A stretch of DNA of 64,000 nt from Streptantibioticus silvisoli (GCF_027947535.2 NZ_JAAGKO020000027.1:1-64000), one strand, 5' to 3'. Counted from the stretch's first letter, positions 37,975 through 53,973 are shown. The notes: generated from the letters alone by a model not told the origin. Program-made: numbers and translations.

Positions 37975-38195
37975 CCCGTTCGGAACCGGCACGTGACCGA
38001 CGCGGAACCGGCACGTGACCCCCGCGGAACCAACGCGGAACCAACGAGGAACCGGCGGCGGAACCGGTGCGGGAGGACAGTGCTCCGGGACGCGTTAGCC
38101 TTGGGGGGTCTGTCCTGCCGACCCCCGGTCCACCGTGACCGGCAGCACGGACCCGGACCCCTTGGTCATCCCGCCAGCTCATGAGAGACACCGCG

Positions 38196-40118
38196 ATGCC
38201 TGTCGAGTCGGTCTTCCCGCGCCTGGAAGCGCTGCTGCCGCACGTCCAGAAGCCGATCCAGTACGTCGGTGGAGAGCTCAACTCCACTGTCAAGGACTGG
38301 GACGCCTGCGACGTGCGCTGGGCGCTGATGTACCCCGACGCCTACGAGGTCGGGCTGCCCAACCAGGGCGTCATGATCCTCTACGAGGTGCTCAACGAGC
38401 GGGAGGGCGTGCTGGCCGAACGCACCTACAGCGTCTGGCCGGACCTGGAGGCGCTGATGCGGGAGCACGACGTCCCGCAGTTCACCGTCGACGCGCACCG
38501 GCCGGTCAAGGCGTTCGACCTGTTCGGCCTCTCGTTCTCCACCGAGCTGGGCTACACCAACATGCTCGCCGCGCTCGACCTGGCCGGCATCCCGCTGGCC
38601 GCGGCCGACCGCACCACCGACGACCCGATCGTGGTCGCCGGCGGCCACGCCGCGTTCAACCCGGAGCCGGTCGCCGACTTCATCGACGCCGCCGTCATCG
38701 GCGACGGCGAGCAGGCGGTGCTGGAGATCACCGAGGTCGTGCGCGCCTGGAAGGCCGAGGGCATGCCCGGCGGCCGCGACGAGGTCCTGCTGCGGCTGGC
38801 GAAGACCGGCGGGGTGTACGTCCCGCGGTACTACGACGTGGAGTACCTGCCGGACGGCCGCATCGCCCGTGTGGTGCCCAACGCCTCCGGCGTGCCGTGG
38901 CGGGTCTCCAAGCACACCGTCATGGACCTCGACGAGTGGCCGTACCCCAAGCAGCCGCTGGTGCCGCTGGCCGAGACCGTGCACGAGCGGATGTCGGTGG
39001 AGATCTTCCGCGGCTGCACCCGCGGCTGCCGCTTCTGCCAGGCGGGCATGATCACCCGCCCGGTGCGCGAGCGCAGCATCACCGGCATCGGCGAGATGGT
39101 CGAGGCCGGCCTGAAGGCCACCGGTTTCGAGGAGGTCGGCCTGCTGTCGCTGTCGTCGGCCGACCACACCGAGATCGCCGACGTCGCCAAGGGCCTGGCC
39201 GACCGGTACGCCGAGGACAAGATCGGCCTGTCCCTGCCCTCCACCCGCGTCGACGCGTTCAACATCGACCTGGCCAACGAGCTGACCCGCAACGGGCGCC
39301 GCTCCGGCCTGACGTTCGCCCCCGAGGGCGGCAGCGAGCGCATCCGCAAGGTCATCAACAAGATGGTCTCCGAGGAGGACCTGATCCGCACGGTCTCCAC
39401 CGCCTACGGCAACGGCTGGCGGCAGGTCAAGCTGTACTTCATGTGCGGCCTGCCCACCGAGACCGACGACGACGTCCTGCAGATCGCCGACATGGCCACC
39501 CGGGTCATCGCCAAGGGCCGCGAGGTCTCCGGGCAGAACGACATCCGCTGCACGGTGTCCATCGGCGGGTTCGTGCCCAAGCCGCACACCCCGTTCCAGT
39601 GGGCGCCGCAGCTGTCCGCCGAGGAGACCGACGCCCGGCTGCGCAAGCTGCGCGACAAGATCCGCGGCGACAAGAAGTACGGCCGCTCGATCGGCTTCCG
39701 CTACCACGACGGCAAGCCCGGCATCGTCGAGGGCCTGCTCTCGCGCGGCGACCGCCGGCTCGGCGCGGTCATCCGCGCGGTCTACGAGGACGGCGGCCGC
39801 TTCGACGGCTGGCGCGAGTACTTCAGCTACGACCGCTGGATGGAGGCCGCCGCCAAGACCCTGCCGTCCGTCGGCCTCGACGTCGACTGGTACACCACCC
39901 GCGAGCGCACCTACGAGGAGGTCCTGCCCTGGGACCACCTCGACTCCGGCCTGGACAAGGACTGGCTCTGGCAGGACTGGCAGGACTCGCTCGACGAGAC
40001 CGAGGTCGAGGACTGCCGCTGGACCCCGTGCTTCGACTGCGGCGTCTGCCCCCAGCTCTCCACCGAGATCCAGATCGGCCCCACCGGCCAGAAGCTCCTG
40101 CCGCTGTCGGTGAAGTAG
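38196..40118 (+). CDS. B12-binding-domain radical SAM protein, TIGR03960 type
   Basis: A 640-residue radical SAM enzyme of unknown substrate. An N-terminal Rossmann-like cobalamin-binding-type region (to about 200) precedes the cluster motif GCTRGCRFCQAG (Cx3Cx2C) near residue 275, and FAPEGGSERIRKVINK follows. The C-terminus has CRWTPCFDCGVC. Family members occur next to a TIGR03936 protein, sometimes fused to it; here that partner (44393) is displaced by about 4.3 kb. ATG 38196 has GAGAGA upstream; ATG 38181 is an alternative with no ribosome site. The 220-bp spacer before it contains imperfect GCGGAACC repeats. Confidence 0.92.
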   Translation: MPVESVFPRLEALLPHVQKPIQYVGGELNSTVKDWDACDVRWALMYPDAYEVGLPNQGVMILYEVLNEREGVLAERTYSVWPDLEALMREHDVPQFTVDAHRPVKAFDLFGLSFSTELGYTNMLAALDLAGIPLAAADRTTDDPIVVAGGHAAFNPEPVADFIDAAVIGDGEQAVLEITEVVRAWKAEGMPGGRDEVLLRLAKTGGVYVPRYYDVEYLPDGRIARVVPNASGVPWRVSKHTVMDLDEWPYPKQPLVPLAETVHERMSVEIFRGCTRGCRFCQAGMITRPVRERSITGIGEMVEAGLKATGFEEVGLLSLSSADHTEIADVAKGLADRYAEDKIGLSLPSTRVDAFNIDLANELTRNGRRSGLTFAPEGGSERIRKVINKMVSEEDLIRTVSTAYGNGWRQVKLYFMCGLPTETDDDVLQIADMATRVIAKGREVSGQNDIRCTVSIGGFVPKPHTPFQWAPQLSAEETDARLRKLRDKIRGDKKYGRSIGFRYHDGKPGIVEGLLSRGDRRLGAVIRAVYEDGGRFDGWREYFSYDRWMEAAAKTLPSVGLDVDWYTTRERTYEEVLPWDHLDSGLDKDWLWQDWQDSLDETEVEDCRWTPCFDCGVCPQLSTEIQIGPTGQKLLPLSVK

Positions 40119-40145
40119 CCCCCGGCGCGTTCCGCCCGCCCCGGG

Positions 40146-40172
40146 CCCCCGTCGACCGCGGTCGGCGGGGGT
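40146..40172 (+). terminator. Terminator after the radical SAM gene
   Basis: CCCCCGTCGACC pairs with GGTCGGCGGGGG (12 bp with one G-T pair) around a two-base centre, followed by TCTTCG. It marks the left limit of the accessory island. Confidence 0.75.
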
Positions 40173-40253
40173 CTTCGCCGTTCCGTCCGGCCGAGCAGCC
40201 CCGGGAGCGCGTCGGAACGCCGCTTCGGGTTGTGGGGTTGGAGCAGGGGCCGG

Positions 40254-40817
40254 CTATTCCGTGATCTGGTCCATCAGCGCCAGATCGGCCTGTGCGTGCT
40301 GGCAGGGCTGCCGTGCTTCGGAGAACACGACACGTCGGTAACCGCGGGGCAGAGGAGTCGGTTTGACCTGGGGAACGGCCGCGATCTCGGGGCCGGCGTC
40401 GAGTTCCGCCCAGATGATCTTTCCGCCCTTTTTCATGGTCATCGCACCGTAGCCTTTGCTCAGTGCCTGCACGATGGCGAGCCCACGCCCGACTTCGTCA
40501 TGCTCCTTGGCAGACGGGGGCGGGCTGGCGGGCTTGTTGCTGTCGTTGTCCCACACCTCGATGAACAGCGTTTCGCCCGCCACGCGCACCTGCACCGCGA
40601 GCAGTGCCAGCCGTTCCAGGTCGGCGTACGTCGGGTTCGGGTCGGTGATCCCGGTGGCTTCGACGGCGTTGGTGACCAGCTCCGACACGATCACTTCTGC
40701 GTCGTCCACGAGGTTTTCCAGCAACCACGACCGGAGCGTGTGGTTGACGAACGCGCGTGCGCATCCGGGTGCCGTCACCGTGGCCGCGCACTTGAGGCGA
40801 TTTACCAGCAGTTGCAT
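40254..40817 (-). CDS. HATPase-domain protein, anti-sigma-factor-like
   Basis: A 187-residue GHKL ATPase of the RsbW/SpoIIAB type: N-box ELVTNAVEAT near residue 48, G1 box VWDNDSN near 88 and G2 box GRGLAIVQALS near 111. The short form lacks a sensor domain. Such proteins are regularly encoded beside XRE/DUF397 gene pairs in streptomycetes. GGAGG lies six bases before ATG. It begins three bases after the stop of the Cys-rich gene upstream, so the two are one operon. Codon use is less GC-biased than in the flanking core genes. Confidence 0.88.
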   Translation of the reverse strand: MQLLVNRLKCAATVTAPGCARAFVNHTLRSWLLENLVDDAEVIVSELVTNAVEATGITDPNPTYADLERLALLAVQVRVAGETLFIEVWDNDSNKPASPPPSAKEHDEVGRGLAIVQALSKGYGAMTMKKGGKIIWAELDAGPEIAAVPQVKPTPLPRGYRRVVFSEARQPCQHAQADLALMDQITE

Positions 40818-40820
40818 TGC

Positions 40821-41549
40821 CTACCTCCGAGAATGGCCTGTTCGGCGAGCGGGTGCCGAGAGTTCGGATGCGAAGTCGACGAGGGTGTAGTGGTCGAGCT
40901 TCACGACCAGTTGTGCGGCGTGGATGAGGCCGATTCGGGTGTCCGCGAAGGGCATAGTGCCGATGGGGTGGGTCGCGTCAGGGATCGGAACCGTTCCCGA
41001 CCGGGGCATGTGCATGACCCCGTTCACCCCGTACAGGCGCGGTGCGCGGCAGCGAATGCCGACGTAGTCGTCCCTGAGGTGTGGGCATGCGCTCACGGAG
41101 ACCGGTACACAGCGAATGCAGACCGGCGGATGAGTGATCTTGATGGGTGCGGGCCATGGCTGCCACTCGTAGTCAGTGCGGCTCAGCAGGAACAGGACTC
41201 CGTCATTGGTGGCTTCAGGTCGGGTCGGGGTCCCGCAGACCTGACAAAGGAGCCCGCCCATGGCGCGACGCTGCCGCCCGGCGTGGGTTTTGCCGAACAA
41301 AGGTTTCCCCTGCCCCGGCTTGTTTGCCGCGCGCCGCCACAGCACCCCGAAAGCGTCACGGTCGCGCGGGCGTTCGTTCGCGAACCCGATCCGATCGCCG
41401 CGCCACACGAGGCGCGGCTGGGCGCGGACTTCACCGCTCCAGGCCGTGATGAACGGGACCTTCCTGCGCAGGCGATCAGATGCAGGGGCCGGGGTGTACC
41501 TGCCGATCGGTGGCACGTCGTGCGGGGCCACGCCTGGCGCATCAATCAT
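40821..41549 (-). CDS. Cys-rich probable zinc-binding protein, unknown function
   Basis: A 242-residue protein I cannot name. It has C102-x2-C105, C144-x2-C147, then C155-P-H157 and C167, which look like zinc sites. Upstream is a basic region (WRRAANKPGQGKPLFGKTHAGRQRR), and the C-terminal part is IGLIHAAQLVVKLDHYTLVDFASE. I have seen similar proteins next to HATPase and XRE genes in streptomycetes. ATG 41549 has AGGGAG eight bases upstream. It is divergent from the XRE gene across 251 bp. Confidence 0.7.
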   Translation of the reverse strand: MIDAPGVAPHDVPPIGRYTPAPASDRLRRKVPFITAWSGEVRAQPRLVWRGDRIGFANERPRDRDAFGVLWRRAANKPGQGKPLFGKTHAGRQRRAMGGLLCQVCGTPTRPEATNDGVLFLLSRTDYEWQPWPAPIKITHPPVCIRCVPVSVSACPHLRDDYVGIRCRAPRLYGVNGVMHMPRSGTVPIPDATHPIGTMPFADTRIGLIHAAQLVVKLDHYTLVDFASELSAPARRTGHSRR

Positions 41550-41759
41550 CAGTTGTCTCCCTTGTGGAAACCCCGCCCGGGTCACGTTGCCCGGTGGCGA
41601 GGGAGTCGGGCCCCAAACGTGCTGGCTGCGGCGTGTCCGGGCGGCCACCGCCTTGCCTCGCGGCGTGCGGCGTGATCGTTCGACGCAGGCCCATCCGCTG
41701 CTCTCCGTAGCATCTCCGCTACCGGGCACGGGTTCAGAGTGGAGCAGGACAGGGAAGTC

Positions 41760-41779
41760 TTCAACTTGCGTAAGTTGAA
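41760..41779. promoter_or_regulatory. Perfect dyad operator candidate before the XRE gene
   Basis: TTCAACTT (41760-41767), GCGT, AAGTTGAA (41772-41779): 8-bp arms around four bases, 21 bp before the TTG start. A third half-like GGTTGAA overlaps the start codon. A second dyad GTAGC-N6-GCTAC lies at 41707-41722, between the divergent promoters. Confidence 0.7.
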
Positions 41780-41800
41780 CGAAGAGTTGGATGGAAAAGG

Positions 41801-42628
41801 TTGAACCGGAAAGACTTGGACCCTGAGGAGTCACCAGGGGCGGCATTCGGCGAACGTCTGCGCAGATTGCGAGATGATCAGGGCTGGACGCAGGATGAGT
41901 TGGCGGACCGGATCGGCTACTCCGGGACGCACATCTCGGCGGTAGAAACTGGCCGTCGTTCCCCAACTCCCCGTTTCGCGGCGGCCGCTGACAAGGCGTT
42001 CGGGACTGGTGATCGCTTCGAGCGTCAGAGTCGTGCGGTACGGCATACGGCATTGCTGGAGGGGTTCCCTGAGTACGTCGCTCACGAGCGACGTGCAACG
42101 GAGATCAGACTGTTCGAACTGGGCATCGTTCCGGGGCTGCTTCAGACCCCGGAGTACGCCGCTGCCATCACCAGGGGTGCTGTGAGGCGGGGGGCCATCA
42201 CGAAGCAGCAAGCTGAGGAACGGCTGTCACTGCTCGCAGACCGCCAAGCGTCCTTGACGCGGTCCCCGGTCCCGCTGGTGTACGCGGTTCTGGACGAAAG
42301 CTGCGTTCGGCGTACGGTGGGCGGCTCCGCGGTGATGGCCGACCAGTTGGACCGACTCGTCGAGTTCGCCGAACAGCCGTCCACAGTGTTTCAAATCGCA
42401 CCATATGATCTTGGAGAACGACGAGCGTTTGACCTGCCTCTGTACATCTTGACGATGCCGGATCGTTCGCTTGTGTCGTACGCCGAGTCTGCACAGCAAG
42501 GGCGTCTGGAGCGTGATATGAGCTTCGTGCTGCCCTTGATGACGGCCTACCATCAGCTACAGGCCGAAGCGTCCCCGCAGGCGGACTCGGTAACCATGAT
42601 CACCCGGTTACGAAAGGGCACTCCGTGA
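41801..42628 (+). CDS. XRE-family regulator with DUF5753 domain
   Basis: A 275-residue WhiJ-like DNA-binding protein: HTH about residues 15-70 (FGERLRRLRDDQGWTQDELADRIGYSGTHIS in sense) and a DUF5753 ligand-binding-like domain from about 90 (FELGIVPGLLQTPEYA to the C-terminus). TTG 41801 is used because family members typically start NRKxLDPExSP. Codon 270 is TTA (42608-42610), which in streptomycetes makes translation depend on the bldA tRNA. It is coupled to the DUF397 gene, whose GTG overlaps its stop. Confidence 0.9.
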   Translation: MNRKDLDPEESPGAAFGERLRRLRDDQGWTQDELADRIGYSGTHISAVETGRRSPTPRFAAAADKAFGTGDRFERQSRAVRHTALLEGFPEYVAHERRATEIRLFELGIVPGLLQTPEYAAAITRGAVRRGAITKQQAEERLSLLADRQASLTRSPVPLVYAVLDESCVRRTVGGSAVMADQLDRLVEFAEQPSTVFQIAPYDLGERRAFDLPLYILTMPDRSLVSYAESAQQGRLERDMSFVLPLMTAYHQLQAEASPQADSVTMITRLRKGTP

Positions 42629-42834
42629 CGACCGAATCCCCCCTTTGGTTCAAGAGTTCGCACAGCAGCAACGGCGGCGCGTGCGTCGAGATCGCCACCA
42701 ACCTCGTTGCCCCTTGCGGCATCGTTCCCGTCCGGGACTCCAAGGACCCGGACGGCCCGGCGCTGACATTCGCCGCCGAGACGTGGTCGGCGTTCGTGGA
42801 CGCGGTGGGCGCGGGCCGGTTCGGCGCCGTCTGA
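42625..42834 (+). CDS. DUF397 protein
   Basis: A 69-residue small acidic protein with the family pattern WFKSSHSSNGGACVEIA, VPVRDSKDPDGPALTF and WSAFVDAV. DUF397 proteins nearly always follow a XRE/DUF5753 regulator and are thought to antagonise it, sometimes in a toxin-antitoxin-like manner. GTG overlaps the preceding TGA (GTGA). Confidence 0.92.
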   Translation: MTTESPLWFKSSHSSNGGACVEIATNLVAPCGIVPVRDSKDPDGPALTFAAETWSAFVDAVGAGRFGAV

Positions 42835-43046
42835 GCTTCTCGGCGTCCGGGGCGCAGGGAGCCCCAGTGCGACCATGAGGCTTGAAGATCCAGGAGATCG
42901 CGGTAGTACTCGCTGACTTAGCCGGGCTGAGGGCGGCGCGGCGGCCTTCGTTTGAGGAGTCAGGTTCCGACCATCCACCTGGATTCACATTTCCTTCACA
43001 TTCCTGCCATGATGGCCCCTCAGATCTCAGTTCCGTGGGGGGATTC

Positions 43047-43763
43047 ATGTCTGACCACACGCCATCTTGGGCGCAACCACCAAACGAAGAAGGCCCACGG
43101 CAGGCCCCCGTGAGCCTTCCGGCCCCGCCGCAACCCCAGTTCTTCCCCGGCCCGCAAACAACCAGCGGCGGGTCCGCGTACGGTCCGCCCGGCCAGGTCC
43201 CACCGCCGTGGATGACTGCCCCGGCCGGCGTCCCGAAGAAGAACCGCACGTGGATCAAGTACGCGGCGACAGCGTTCGTCGCCATGTCCATCGGTGTCGT
43301 CATGGGTGAAGGCGGGGGCGCCGCGCCGAAGACGGCCACGGCCGTACCCGCCCCGACCGTAACGGTGACGGTGGCGCCTCGGCAGGCCACGGCGAAGCAT
43401 CCCGTCAAGCAGAAAGCGCAACCGGCCGCGGCGGTCACGCACCCGACGCACAAGCCTGTCCCGCCCGCGGTATCGAAGGACACGGTGACCTACGTGGTGA
43501 CCGGCAGTTCGGCGGAGGTCACCTACGGGCCGGCCGGGTCGGACTTCAACGGGCATGTGCCGATGACGGTGTCAAAGAAGTTGGGATCTCCGTCGTACTA
43601 CGCGATCAACGCCCAGTTGCAGGGCGGCGGCACCGTCACCTGCAAGATCGAGGTGAACGGAAAGACGATTTCCCACGCCACGGCGTCGGGCGGCTACAAC
43701 ATCGCCTCCTGTGAGATCACGCAGGACCTGTTCGACTCGGGCTGGCAGGACGCCAACGGCTGA
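43047..43763 (+). CDS. MmpS-like membrane-anchored protein
   Basis: A 238-residue protein: Pro-rich cytoplasmic tail (1-72), basic KKNR, one transmembrane helix (YAATAFVAMSIGVVMG), a Pro/Thr/Lys-rich linker, and an extracellular beta domain with YVVTGSSAEVTYGPAG, YYAINAQLQGGGTVTCKIEVNGK and SGGYNIASCEI. The domain resembles MmpS/DUF4333-like beta sandwiches and has two Cys that could bridge. No MmpL partner is present. ATG follows TGGGGGGA. Confidence 0.75.
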   Translation: MSDHTPSWAQPPNEEGPRQAPVSLPAPPQPQFFPGPQTTSGGSAYGPPGQVPPPWMTAPAGVPKKNRTWIKYAATAFVAMSIGVVMGEGGGAAPKTATAVPAPTVTVTVAPRQATAKHPVKQKAQPAAAVTHPTHKPVPPAVSKDTVTYVVTGSSAEVTYGPAGSDFNGHVPMTVSKKLGSPSYYAINAQLQGGGTVTCKIEVNGKTISHATASGGYNIASCEITQDLFDSGWQDANG

Positions 43764-43778
43764 GCCCCCGCCCGTACG

Positions 43779-43807
43779 AGAGCGGCCTCCCTGTGCGAGG
43801 CCGCTCT
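43779..43807 (+). terminator. Terminator after the MmpS-like gene
   Basis: An 11-bp perfect stem, AGAGCGGCCTC at 43779-43789 against 43797-43807, with a seven-base loop, 15 bases after the stop. Confidence 0.85.
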
Positions 43808-44392
43808 GCGTTGCCGGGTGAGGGGCCGCCGGTCACGATGCCCGGTTCTTCGCCGCTGACCACACCGGTCCGACCGGTGGATGCCAGTGCGGTGCCCGGC
43901 CGTCGACGATGAACGGAAGACCTCCGCTCGCGCGGGGCCGACACTTGCCGACCGGCCGGCATCGCGTACCACCAGCCCGCTTCGCATCCGCTTCGAGGAA
44001 CGCCTCATGCCCGGCCGGAGCCGGGGCGCGGCGAGGGCCAGGGCCGGTGGGCGGGCCAGCGGTAGTGATGACCTCTTCCCCGGGTGGAGGCCCCCGCCGG
44101 CGAATGCGACACGCTGCGCGACCGGCGGGGGCCCGTCCTGAACGGTGCCCGGCACGTTCGACTCCGTCGGTACGCCACGGACCCGGCCCACGCATTCCGG
44201 TGACTTCGACGCAGGGATCGGCCGGAGCGGCCGGCGATTCGGTCGGTGGTTCGGGGCGTCCGCCGCGGAGGGTGTCGTCCCGCTGACGCCGGGAGGGCCG
44301 GCCGGCCGGTTGCGTGTGCGGGGTCCGGCGCGGACCGCGTAACCTTGGAGGGGAACGACCCACCGCACGAGACCGTGTAAGGACTGACGACA
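43808..44392. other. Gene-poor spacer with a long hairpin
   Basis: About 585 bp with no reading frame I can support on either strand. It contains GGCCCCCGCCGG (44090-44101) pairing perfectly with 44123-44134 across a 21-base loop, a possible terminator or decayed element end. AAGGA at 44379-44383 serves the next gene. The stretch forms the right margin of the accessory island and may be remnant DNA. Confidence 0.6.
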
Positions 44393-45220
44393 CTGGGCAA
44401 GCGACAGCCCGAAGGCCCGCCGCCCGCACCCGCGGTGCAGCGCATCCGACTGCGCTACACCAAGCGCGGCCGCCTCCGGTTCACCAGCCACCGAGACTTC
44501 CAGCGCGCGTTCGAGCGGGCCCTGCGCCGCGCCGAGGTGCCCATGGCGTACTCGGCGGGCTTCACCCCGCACCCCAAGGTCTCCTACGCGGGCGCCGCCC
44601 CCACCGGCGTCGCCAGCGAGGCGGAGTACCTGGAGATCGCCCTCACGCAGACCCGGGACCCCGAGGCGCTGCGGCTGCTGCTGGACGAGTCGCTGCCGGC
44701 CGGCCTCGACGTCACCGAAGCCGTCGAGGCGCACACCCCGGGGCTGGCGGACCGGATGACCGCGTCCGAGTGGACCCTGCGGCTGGAGGGCGTCGAGCCC
44801 GCCGAGGCGGAACGCGCGGTGCGGGCCTTCCTGGCCGCCGAGACCGTCGAGGTCAGCAGGAACACCAAGAACGGCCTGCGGACCTTCGACGCCCGCAGTG
44901 CCGTCACCGCGCTGTCGGTCGCCGATGGTGCGGAATCCGGTACCGATAGGCCCGCGCCGGTAGCTTGTGCGATACTGCGCCTGGTGGTTCGGCATGCAAC
45001 GCCTGCCGTTCGACCCGACGACGTCCTGTCCGGCCTCTGTTCGACGGCCGACCTCGCGCCGCCGGTCCCCGCAGCGGTGACCAGGCTGGCGCAGGGGCCG
45101 CTCGACGAGGGGACCGGCACGGTGACCGACCCGTTGGCGCCAGACCGCGACGCCGCCGAGGCCGCCGCTTCCACGGCCGCCGAGATGTCCGTCGCGACGG
45201 CACCGGGTGGTTCCGCGTAG
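44393..45220 (+). CDS. TIGR03936-type (DUF2344) radical-SAM-associated protein
   Basis: A 275-residue partner of the TIGR03960 radical SAM protein. The core is QRIRLRYTKRGRLRFTSHRDFQRAFERALRRA, then FTPHPKVSYA. I place the start at CTG 44393, because AAGGA lies nine bases upstream and the reading GKRQPEGPPPAPAV that follows matches the N-terminus I recall for streptomycete homologues. The first in-frame GTG (44435) has no ribosome site and would remove it. It is followed closely by rne. Confidence 0.85.
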   Translation: MGKRQPEGPPPAPAVQRIRLRYTKRGRLRFTSHRDFQRAFERALRRAEVPMAYSAGFTPHPKVSYAGAAPTGVASEAEYLEIALTQTRDPEALRLLLDESLPAGLDVTEAVEAHTPGLADRMTASEWTLRLEGVEPAEAERAVRAFLAAETVEVSRNTKNGLRTFDARSAVTALSVADGAESGTDRPAPVACAILRLVVRHATPAVRPDDVLSGLCSTADLAPPVPAAVTRLAQGPLDEGTGTVTDPLAPDRDAAEAAASTAAEMSVATAPGGSA

Positions 45221-53475: not shown

Positions 53476-53973
53476 GTGGGACGAGGGCGCCCGGGAACCC
53501 CGCCGTGGACGGCGGGCCCCTCCCAGCCCCGCGGGGCCGAGCGCACGCTGGCCAGCGTCGGTGACCTGCCCGGGGACCGCCCGGGCCCCGGCCCGGCCCG
53601 CCCGGCGGCCGTGCGCGCCGCCGACCGGCCGGCGGAGCGGCTGTGGCACGTCACGCTCAGCCTGTCCGGCGACGAGGCGCCGCTGCCCGAGGTCAGGCGG
53701 GCGCTGGAGCAGCTGGCGCACGACCACCCGTTCCTGCTGACCAGCCGGTACGCGGCCGACCACGCCGAGATCCGCTACTGGGAACAGGCCCGCGACCTGC
53801 ACGACGCGGCCGCCATCGCACTGCGCCTGTGGGGCGAGCACAAGGCCACCGCCCGGCTGCCGCCGTGGGAGATCGTCGGCCTGGAGGTCATCGACCGCGC
53901 CACCTGGCACCAGCGGGTCGCCGAGGGCTACGGCCCCCCGCCCGCCACACCGGTGGGTGTGCACCCGTACTGA
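53476..53973 (+). CDS. Conserved hypothetical protein between proB and proA
   Basis: A 165-residue protein. About 60 N-terminal residues are Pro/Arg/Gly-rich. The conserved part is LWHVTLSLSGDEAPLPEVRRALEQLAHDHPFLLTSRYAADHAEIRYWEQARDLHDA in sense, followed by LPPWEIVGLEVIDR. I recall this as a standard resident of the streptomycete proB-proA interval, without known function. AGGAGG lies five bases before GTG 53476. Its last codons (VGVHPY) form the first unit of a 29-bp repeat array. Confidence 0.8.
   Translation: MGRGRPGTPPWTAGPSQPRGAERTLASVGDLPGDRPGPGPARPAAVRAADRPAERLWHVTLSLSGDEAPLPEVRRALEQLAHDHPFLLTSRYAADHAEIRYWEQARDLHDAAAIALRLWGEHKATARLPPWEIVGLEVIDRATWHQRVAEGYGPPPATPVGVHPY

Follow-up and report, generated by a model that had tools for sequence, protein, structure and literature searches.

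The 4.3-kb island that separates the TIGR03960 and TIGR03936 genes (gap 40119-44434) in Streptantibioticus silvisoli is best read as an accessory regulatory module of the WhiJ/BldB/AbaA type, acquired in a hypervariable chromosomal site and carrying a Cys-rich/HATPase operon as its output. We place the probability of this reading at roughly 70%. The window, by which we mean the whole 64,000-nucleotide stretch of DNA that was analyzed, had earlier been given a preliminary description from its sequence, and family matches and coordinates bear out the genes named there between the two flanks (Table 1). The proposed divergent, signaling-type module is likewise supported by layout and domains. On the plus strand, the XRE gene shares 4 bp with the DUF397 gene. 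On the minus strand, the Cys-rich gene stops 3 nt before the ATG of the HATPase gene, whose Shine-Dalgarno sequence, GGAGG, overlaps the end of the Cys-rich gene. The start codon of the XRE gene is TTG, preceded by GGATGGAAAAGG, and the inverted repeat upstream of it is made up of the arms TTCAACTT and AAGTTGAA around a gcgt spacer (as one string, TTCAACTTgcgtAAGTTGAA).

Table 1. Features of the island and of its two flanking genes, in window coordinates
Feature	Coordinates	Strand	Evidence
TIGR03960 B12-binding radical SAM protein, left flank, outside the module	38181..40118	+	NCBIfam E 2.1e-213
HATPase_c_2, AbaA/RsbW-like, single-domain	40254..40817	-	PF13581 E 2e-9
Cys-rich protein, phrog_30088 family	40821..41549	-	phrog_30088 E 1.1e-34, residues 30-228
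Divergent intergenic region, 251 bp, presumed control region of both transcription units	41550..41800	.	sequence
Perfect 8-bp inverted repeat, candidate operator	41760..41779	.	21 bp upstream of XRE start
WhiJ-type XRE regulator, HTH_31 + DUF5753	41801..42628	+	PF19054 E 4e-39, PF13560 E 1e-17
DUF397 protein, BldB-paralogue type	42625..42834	+	PF04149 E 1.2e-21
P0005, membrane-anchored, weakly MmpS-like	43047..43763	+	MmpS5 similarity E 0.12
TIGR03936 radical-SAM-associated protein, right flank, outside the module	44435..45220	+	NCBIfam E 4.8e-56

In composition the island stands apart from its surroundings, as had been claimed. The GC content of its genes is 62-70%, below that of both flanks and of the window as a whole (73%), and their GC3 is 0.70-0.90 versus 0.99 and 0.90 in the two flanking genes. 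The TTG/TTA usage attributed to the island belongs to the XRE gene only, which has nine TTG codons and one TTA; every other island gene has no TTA and at most two TTG. Similarly, of the dyads and terminators said to be the island's own, the perfect 8-bp dyad stands, while the three terminators found in a simple scan do not exceed chance (2.5 expected from shuffled sequence). Rfam gave no match between the flanks. The island genes have no integrase match, in agreement with the preliminary description; an integrase or transposase gene and a tRNA attachment site are both absent from the island, and the nearest tRNA lies at 53523.

The flanking genes were located in 130 Streptomycetaceae genomes, a set with no other genome of the window's genus, and in 121 of these the pair lies on one contig and strand. 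The distance between them ranges from 95 bp to 55 kb with a median of 2.1 kb and is below 300 bp in only 14, so that the two genes cannot be said to sit normally side by side. Short or empty sites do occur in relatives and are spread over several genera; one of 253 bp is found in G034, which is among the genomes with the TIGR03960 nearest to that of the window (92%). HMM scans covered 54 stretches that span the whole gap or nearly so, plus the flanks in genomes with a split pair. In these stretches there was no second Cys-rich gene, and XRE, DUF397 or HATPase genes were present in a few; recurrence of the island's five genes at this position in most streptomycetes was not found. Gap content differs from genome to genome, and when 109 proteins predicted in 28 of the gaps were searched against Pfam, the cargo proved mixed, with amino-acid permeases, TerD, resolvases, acetyltransferases, restriction endonucleases, and others. 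Across the Streptomycetaceae, accessory gene content in the TIGR03960-TIGR03936 interval is hypervariable, and given the wide range of gap sizes and the diversity of cargo, the island occupies a locus that varies throughout the family and does not interrupt a pair that is otherwise strictly conserved. A defense-island reading of the site was ruled out, as the mixed cargo is not dominated by defense genes. In a near relative (G013), the gap encodes a protein with eCIS_core and DNA/RNA non-specific endonuclease domains (L124, 411-1598). Two genomes of genus g17, G016 and G027 (L164, L165, L167, and L168), have the flank pair split across different contigs, with both genes well inside large contigs in G016; in each of the two, TIGR03936 is preceded at a distance of about 4 kb by a WhiJ-type XRE gene.

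Most of the module has a published counterpart. BldB paralogues (DUF397) are found beside WhiJ (XRE) and AbaA (HATPase) paralogues in S. venezuelae and S. coelicolor, where they form a highly paralogous module (PMC10294661, PMC4255298). The island displays the features of this type, i.e., an XRE protein with a C-terminal DUF5753 domain, an adjoining DUF397 gene, and a nearby AbaA-like HATPase in a divergent operon. Its HATPase, XRE-DUF5753, and DUF397 genes are therefore an instance of the abaA-whiJ-bldB paralogue module, and the combination earlier taken to be undescribed is already known; in the available parts of that literature (PMC10294661, PMC4255298), it is just the Cys-rich member that lacks a description. 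The island shares with the Streptomyces clusters, such as SCO4542-4544 of S. coelicolor, neighboring XRE, DUF397, and HATPase genes, many paralogues per genome, and lineage-specific presence (PMC10294661, PMC4255298); the window's genome has 15 DUF5753 and 74 HATPase_c_2 matches. It differs from them in that the first gene opposite the XRE gene encodes the Cys-rich protein, translationally coupled to the HATPase. The iosA-whiJ9-bldB9 cluster of S. venezuelae offers a parallel, as it too places a non-AbaA effector without a known fold in the slot beside whiJ-bldB, and WhiJ9 binds the divergent intergenic region and iosA, the divergent gene, depends on it for activation (PMC10294661). As described, the two effectors differ: IosA is a 15-kDa protein with a pI of 10.3 (PMC10294661), whereas the window protein has 242 residues and conserved Cys motifs. 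Near the window's XRE start there are three TCAAC/GTTGA cores where 0.9 would be expected. Over all loci, the intergenic regions between XRE and Cys-rich genes show no general enrichment of the WhiJ9 repeat core CGnnCTCAAC, considered as a common operator (15 occurrences versus 12.5 expected). The HATPase resembles SspH and other HATPase-only regulators in being a single-domain protein without a histidine phosphoacceptor. SspH controls antibiotics and requires residues of its N and G1 boxes (PMC9137472); at 142 residues (PMC9137472) it is shorter than the window protein, which has 187 residues and a C-terminal extension.

The Cys-rich protein, with its motif CQVCG...PPxCxxC...CPHL, had been called an orphan, a status ruled out by three paralogues within the window's genome (59, 34, and 31% identity) and by relatives in 91 of 298 Streptomycetaceae genomes, representing 13 of 17 genera. 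Further relatives are found in other actinomycete genera, including Lentzea, Actinokineospora, and Actinophytocola; a second single-member query returned 22 loci, and a single-protein scan of genome contigs with P0002 gave no close relative. The phrog_30088 profile, which has no assigned function, matches all 61 aligned members (alignment A1). Conserved in this alignment are a CxxC...CxxC...C pattern and an invariant Arg. C102 and C155 are invariant, C105 is kept in 60/61, C144 in 56/61, and C147 in 47/61, with at least four of the five present in 60 of the 61 members, and this near-complete retention suggests that the protein binds metal. The protein has no family in Pfam, NCBIfam, or PADLOC, and a PDB sequence search gave no usable match. 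An AlphaFold2 model (pLDDT 87.6, pTM 0.82) was compared with PDB and BFVD folds, with nothing below an E value of 0.5. It is possible, although in our view doubtful, that the protein is itself a transcription factor or a DNA/RNA-binding zinc-finger regulator instead of a HATPase partner. The Cys pattern and the invariant Arg would fit such a role, as would the genomic setting of the gene, which often follows a regulator gene immediately and in several genomes precedes a conserved set of metabolic genes; against it, neither a known zinc-finger or HNH family nor a matching PDB or BFVD fold was found. Cys-rich genes at several loci (L050/L185, L051, L056, L058, L060, L065, L068, and L071) head a conserved downstream set, comprising a PLP-dependent decarboxylase-like gene and others, that resembles an uncharacterized biosynthetic cluster. 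At the plasmid locus L211 the downstream set is annotated as D-Ala-D-Ala ligase, C39 peptidase, and MurF.

A census of 12-kb stretches around 60 Cys-rich loci (57 from relatives and 3 from the paralogues in the window's genome) was compared with 40 control stretches from the same genomes, a contrast that may be inflated as the HMMs were partly trained on case loci. An AbaA-like HATPase was present at 23 of the 60 Cys-rich loci and at none of the 40 controls (p 1e-6), and an XRE or GntR regulator of any kind at 46/60 versus 4/40 (p 3e-11). Taken separately, any XRE was found at 32/60 versus 2/40 and a GntR/UTRA regulator at 18/60 versus 2/40, while the associations with DUF5753 alone (14/60 versus 2/40, p 0.02) and DUF397 alone (11/60 versus 2/40, p 0.07) were weak. 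The Cys-rich gene thus does keep company with HATPases and regulators elsewhere, as the preliminary description had supposed. Since 37 of the 60 loci have no HATPase in the stretch and the majority have no DUF5753 regulator, the Cys-rich protein is not an obligate part of a WhiJ module. On the Cys-rich tree, linkage to a HATPase was gained or lost at least 10 times, so that the pairing must have formed or broken many times. Distances between Cys-rich proteins correlate with those between HATPases (Mantel r 0.34, p 0.001).

The window's genome contains a sister module, L034, arranged as DUF397-DUF397-XRE<>Cys-rich-HATPase. Its Cys-rich and HATPase proteins are 56-59% identical to those of the window (59% for the HATPase) and its XRE protein only 28%, which argues that the Cys-rich/HATPase pair is the unit and the regulator exchangeable. 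Besides L034, the island's four-type layout recurs in L035, L062, L075, L083, and Streptomyces sedi L198. Both this recurrence and the covariation of XRE with Cys-rich distances (r 0.39, p 0.002) run counter to the idea that an ordinary WhiJ-BldB pair merely lies beside an independent Cys-rich/HATPase operon in a cargo-collecting locus. Such chance proximity, which the diversity of genes gathered at the site and the many Cys-rich genes under other regulators (GntR/UTRA and XRE-TPR) would allow, seems to us improbable. We give equally little credence to a toxin-antitoxin or anti-phage module, with XRE-DUF397 as a type II system and the Cys-rich protein and HATPase as mobile defense effectors: XRE-DUF397 pairs were earlier predicted to be type II systems, as discussed in PMC6262351, the Cys-rich family is found on plasmids and phages, and the site holds restriction endonucleases and resolvases among others, but the Scr1/Scr2 pair did not behave as a toxin-antitoxin system according to the same source, no PADLOC model matched beyond generic HTH, and the cargo is not predominantly defensive. 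Scr1/Scr2 and 14 other XRE-DUF397 pairs of S. coelicolor are of the same kind as the island's regulator pair; in the available parts of PMC6262351 and PMC10364602 they are studied as pairs, with no mention of a Cys-rich partner.

Relatives of the Cys-rich protein are carried on 54 plasmid records and in three Streptomyces phages, as VWB gp57, TurkishDelight gp47, and Gilgamesh gp38; a viral contig scan added one partial relative. The phage copies belong to the same family as the window's protein, at about 30% identity, and their genes lie near HTH genes; VWB has an HTH gene close by, and Gilgamesh both HTH and HATPase genes. In the latter phage (L209, 19641-28285), HTH, HATPase_c_2, and Cys-rich genes lie within about 5 kb, as if a host regulatory module had been captured. 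A more ambitious proposal, which we hold to be rather unlikely in its full form, is that phrog_30088 is a new-fold, metal-binding signaling partner of AbaA-like HATPases, the two together forming an undescribed partner switch that has moved among WhiJ-, GntR-, and XRE-TPR-type regulators and that phages and plasmids carry to steer streptomycete development or antibiotic production.

The remaining island gene, P0005, is probably separate cargo outside the switch. Its description as MmpS-like stands only as a weak similarity to the solved MmpS5 structure (residues 144-222). No Pfam or NCBIfam family scored above cut-off for P0005, and membership of the MmpS family (PF05423, Mycobact_memb) was rejected, with no Pfam match in P0005 or in its own genome. 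Relatives occur in 12 of 130 genomes, and those examined never lie beside a full-length XRE-DUF397 pair. A promoter-like site at 42984-43013 precedes the gene.

For the regulatory module itself, analogy with the characterized systems suggests how it may work. The WhiJ-type regulator would bind the candidate operator dyad, control its own XRE/DUF397 pair, and activate or silence the Cys-rich/HATPase operon. The DUF397 protein may set the state of the regulator, as is thought for BldB paralogues. The HATPase would then serve as the output, acting in the manner of AbaA, SspH, or RsbW on a sigma-factor or partner-switch pathway, and the Cys-rich protein could be a cytoplasmic, probably zinc-binding partner or a second effector in the iosA/abaA slot. 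The physiological output may be the timing of development or of antibiotic production. The weakest step in this scheme is the part assigned to the Cys-rich protein, because most of its relatives have no HATPase neighbor.

The interest of the island rests mainly on this uncharacterized Cys-rich family, whose biochemistry is the part worth pursuing and for which sequence motifs, a structure model of high confidence, and a set of linked HATPases are available. For the study of the many WhiJ/BldB/AbaA paralogues of streptomycetes, a recurrent Cys-rich partner provides a defined and testable component, one that connects a family of developmental switches to plasmids and phages.
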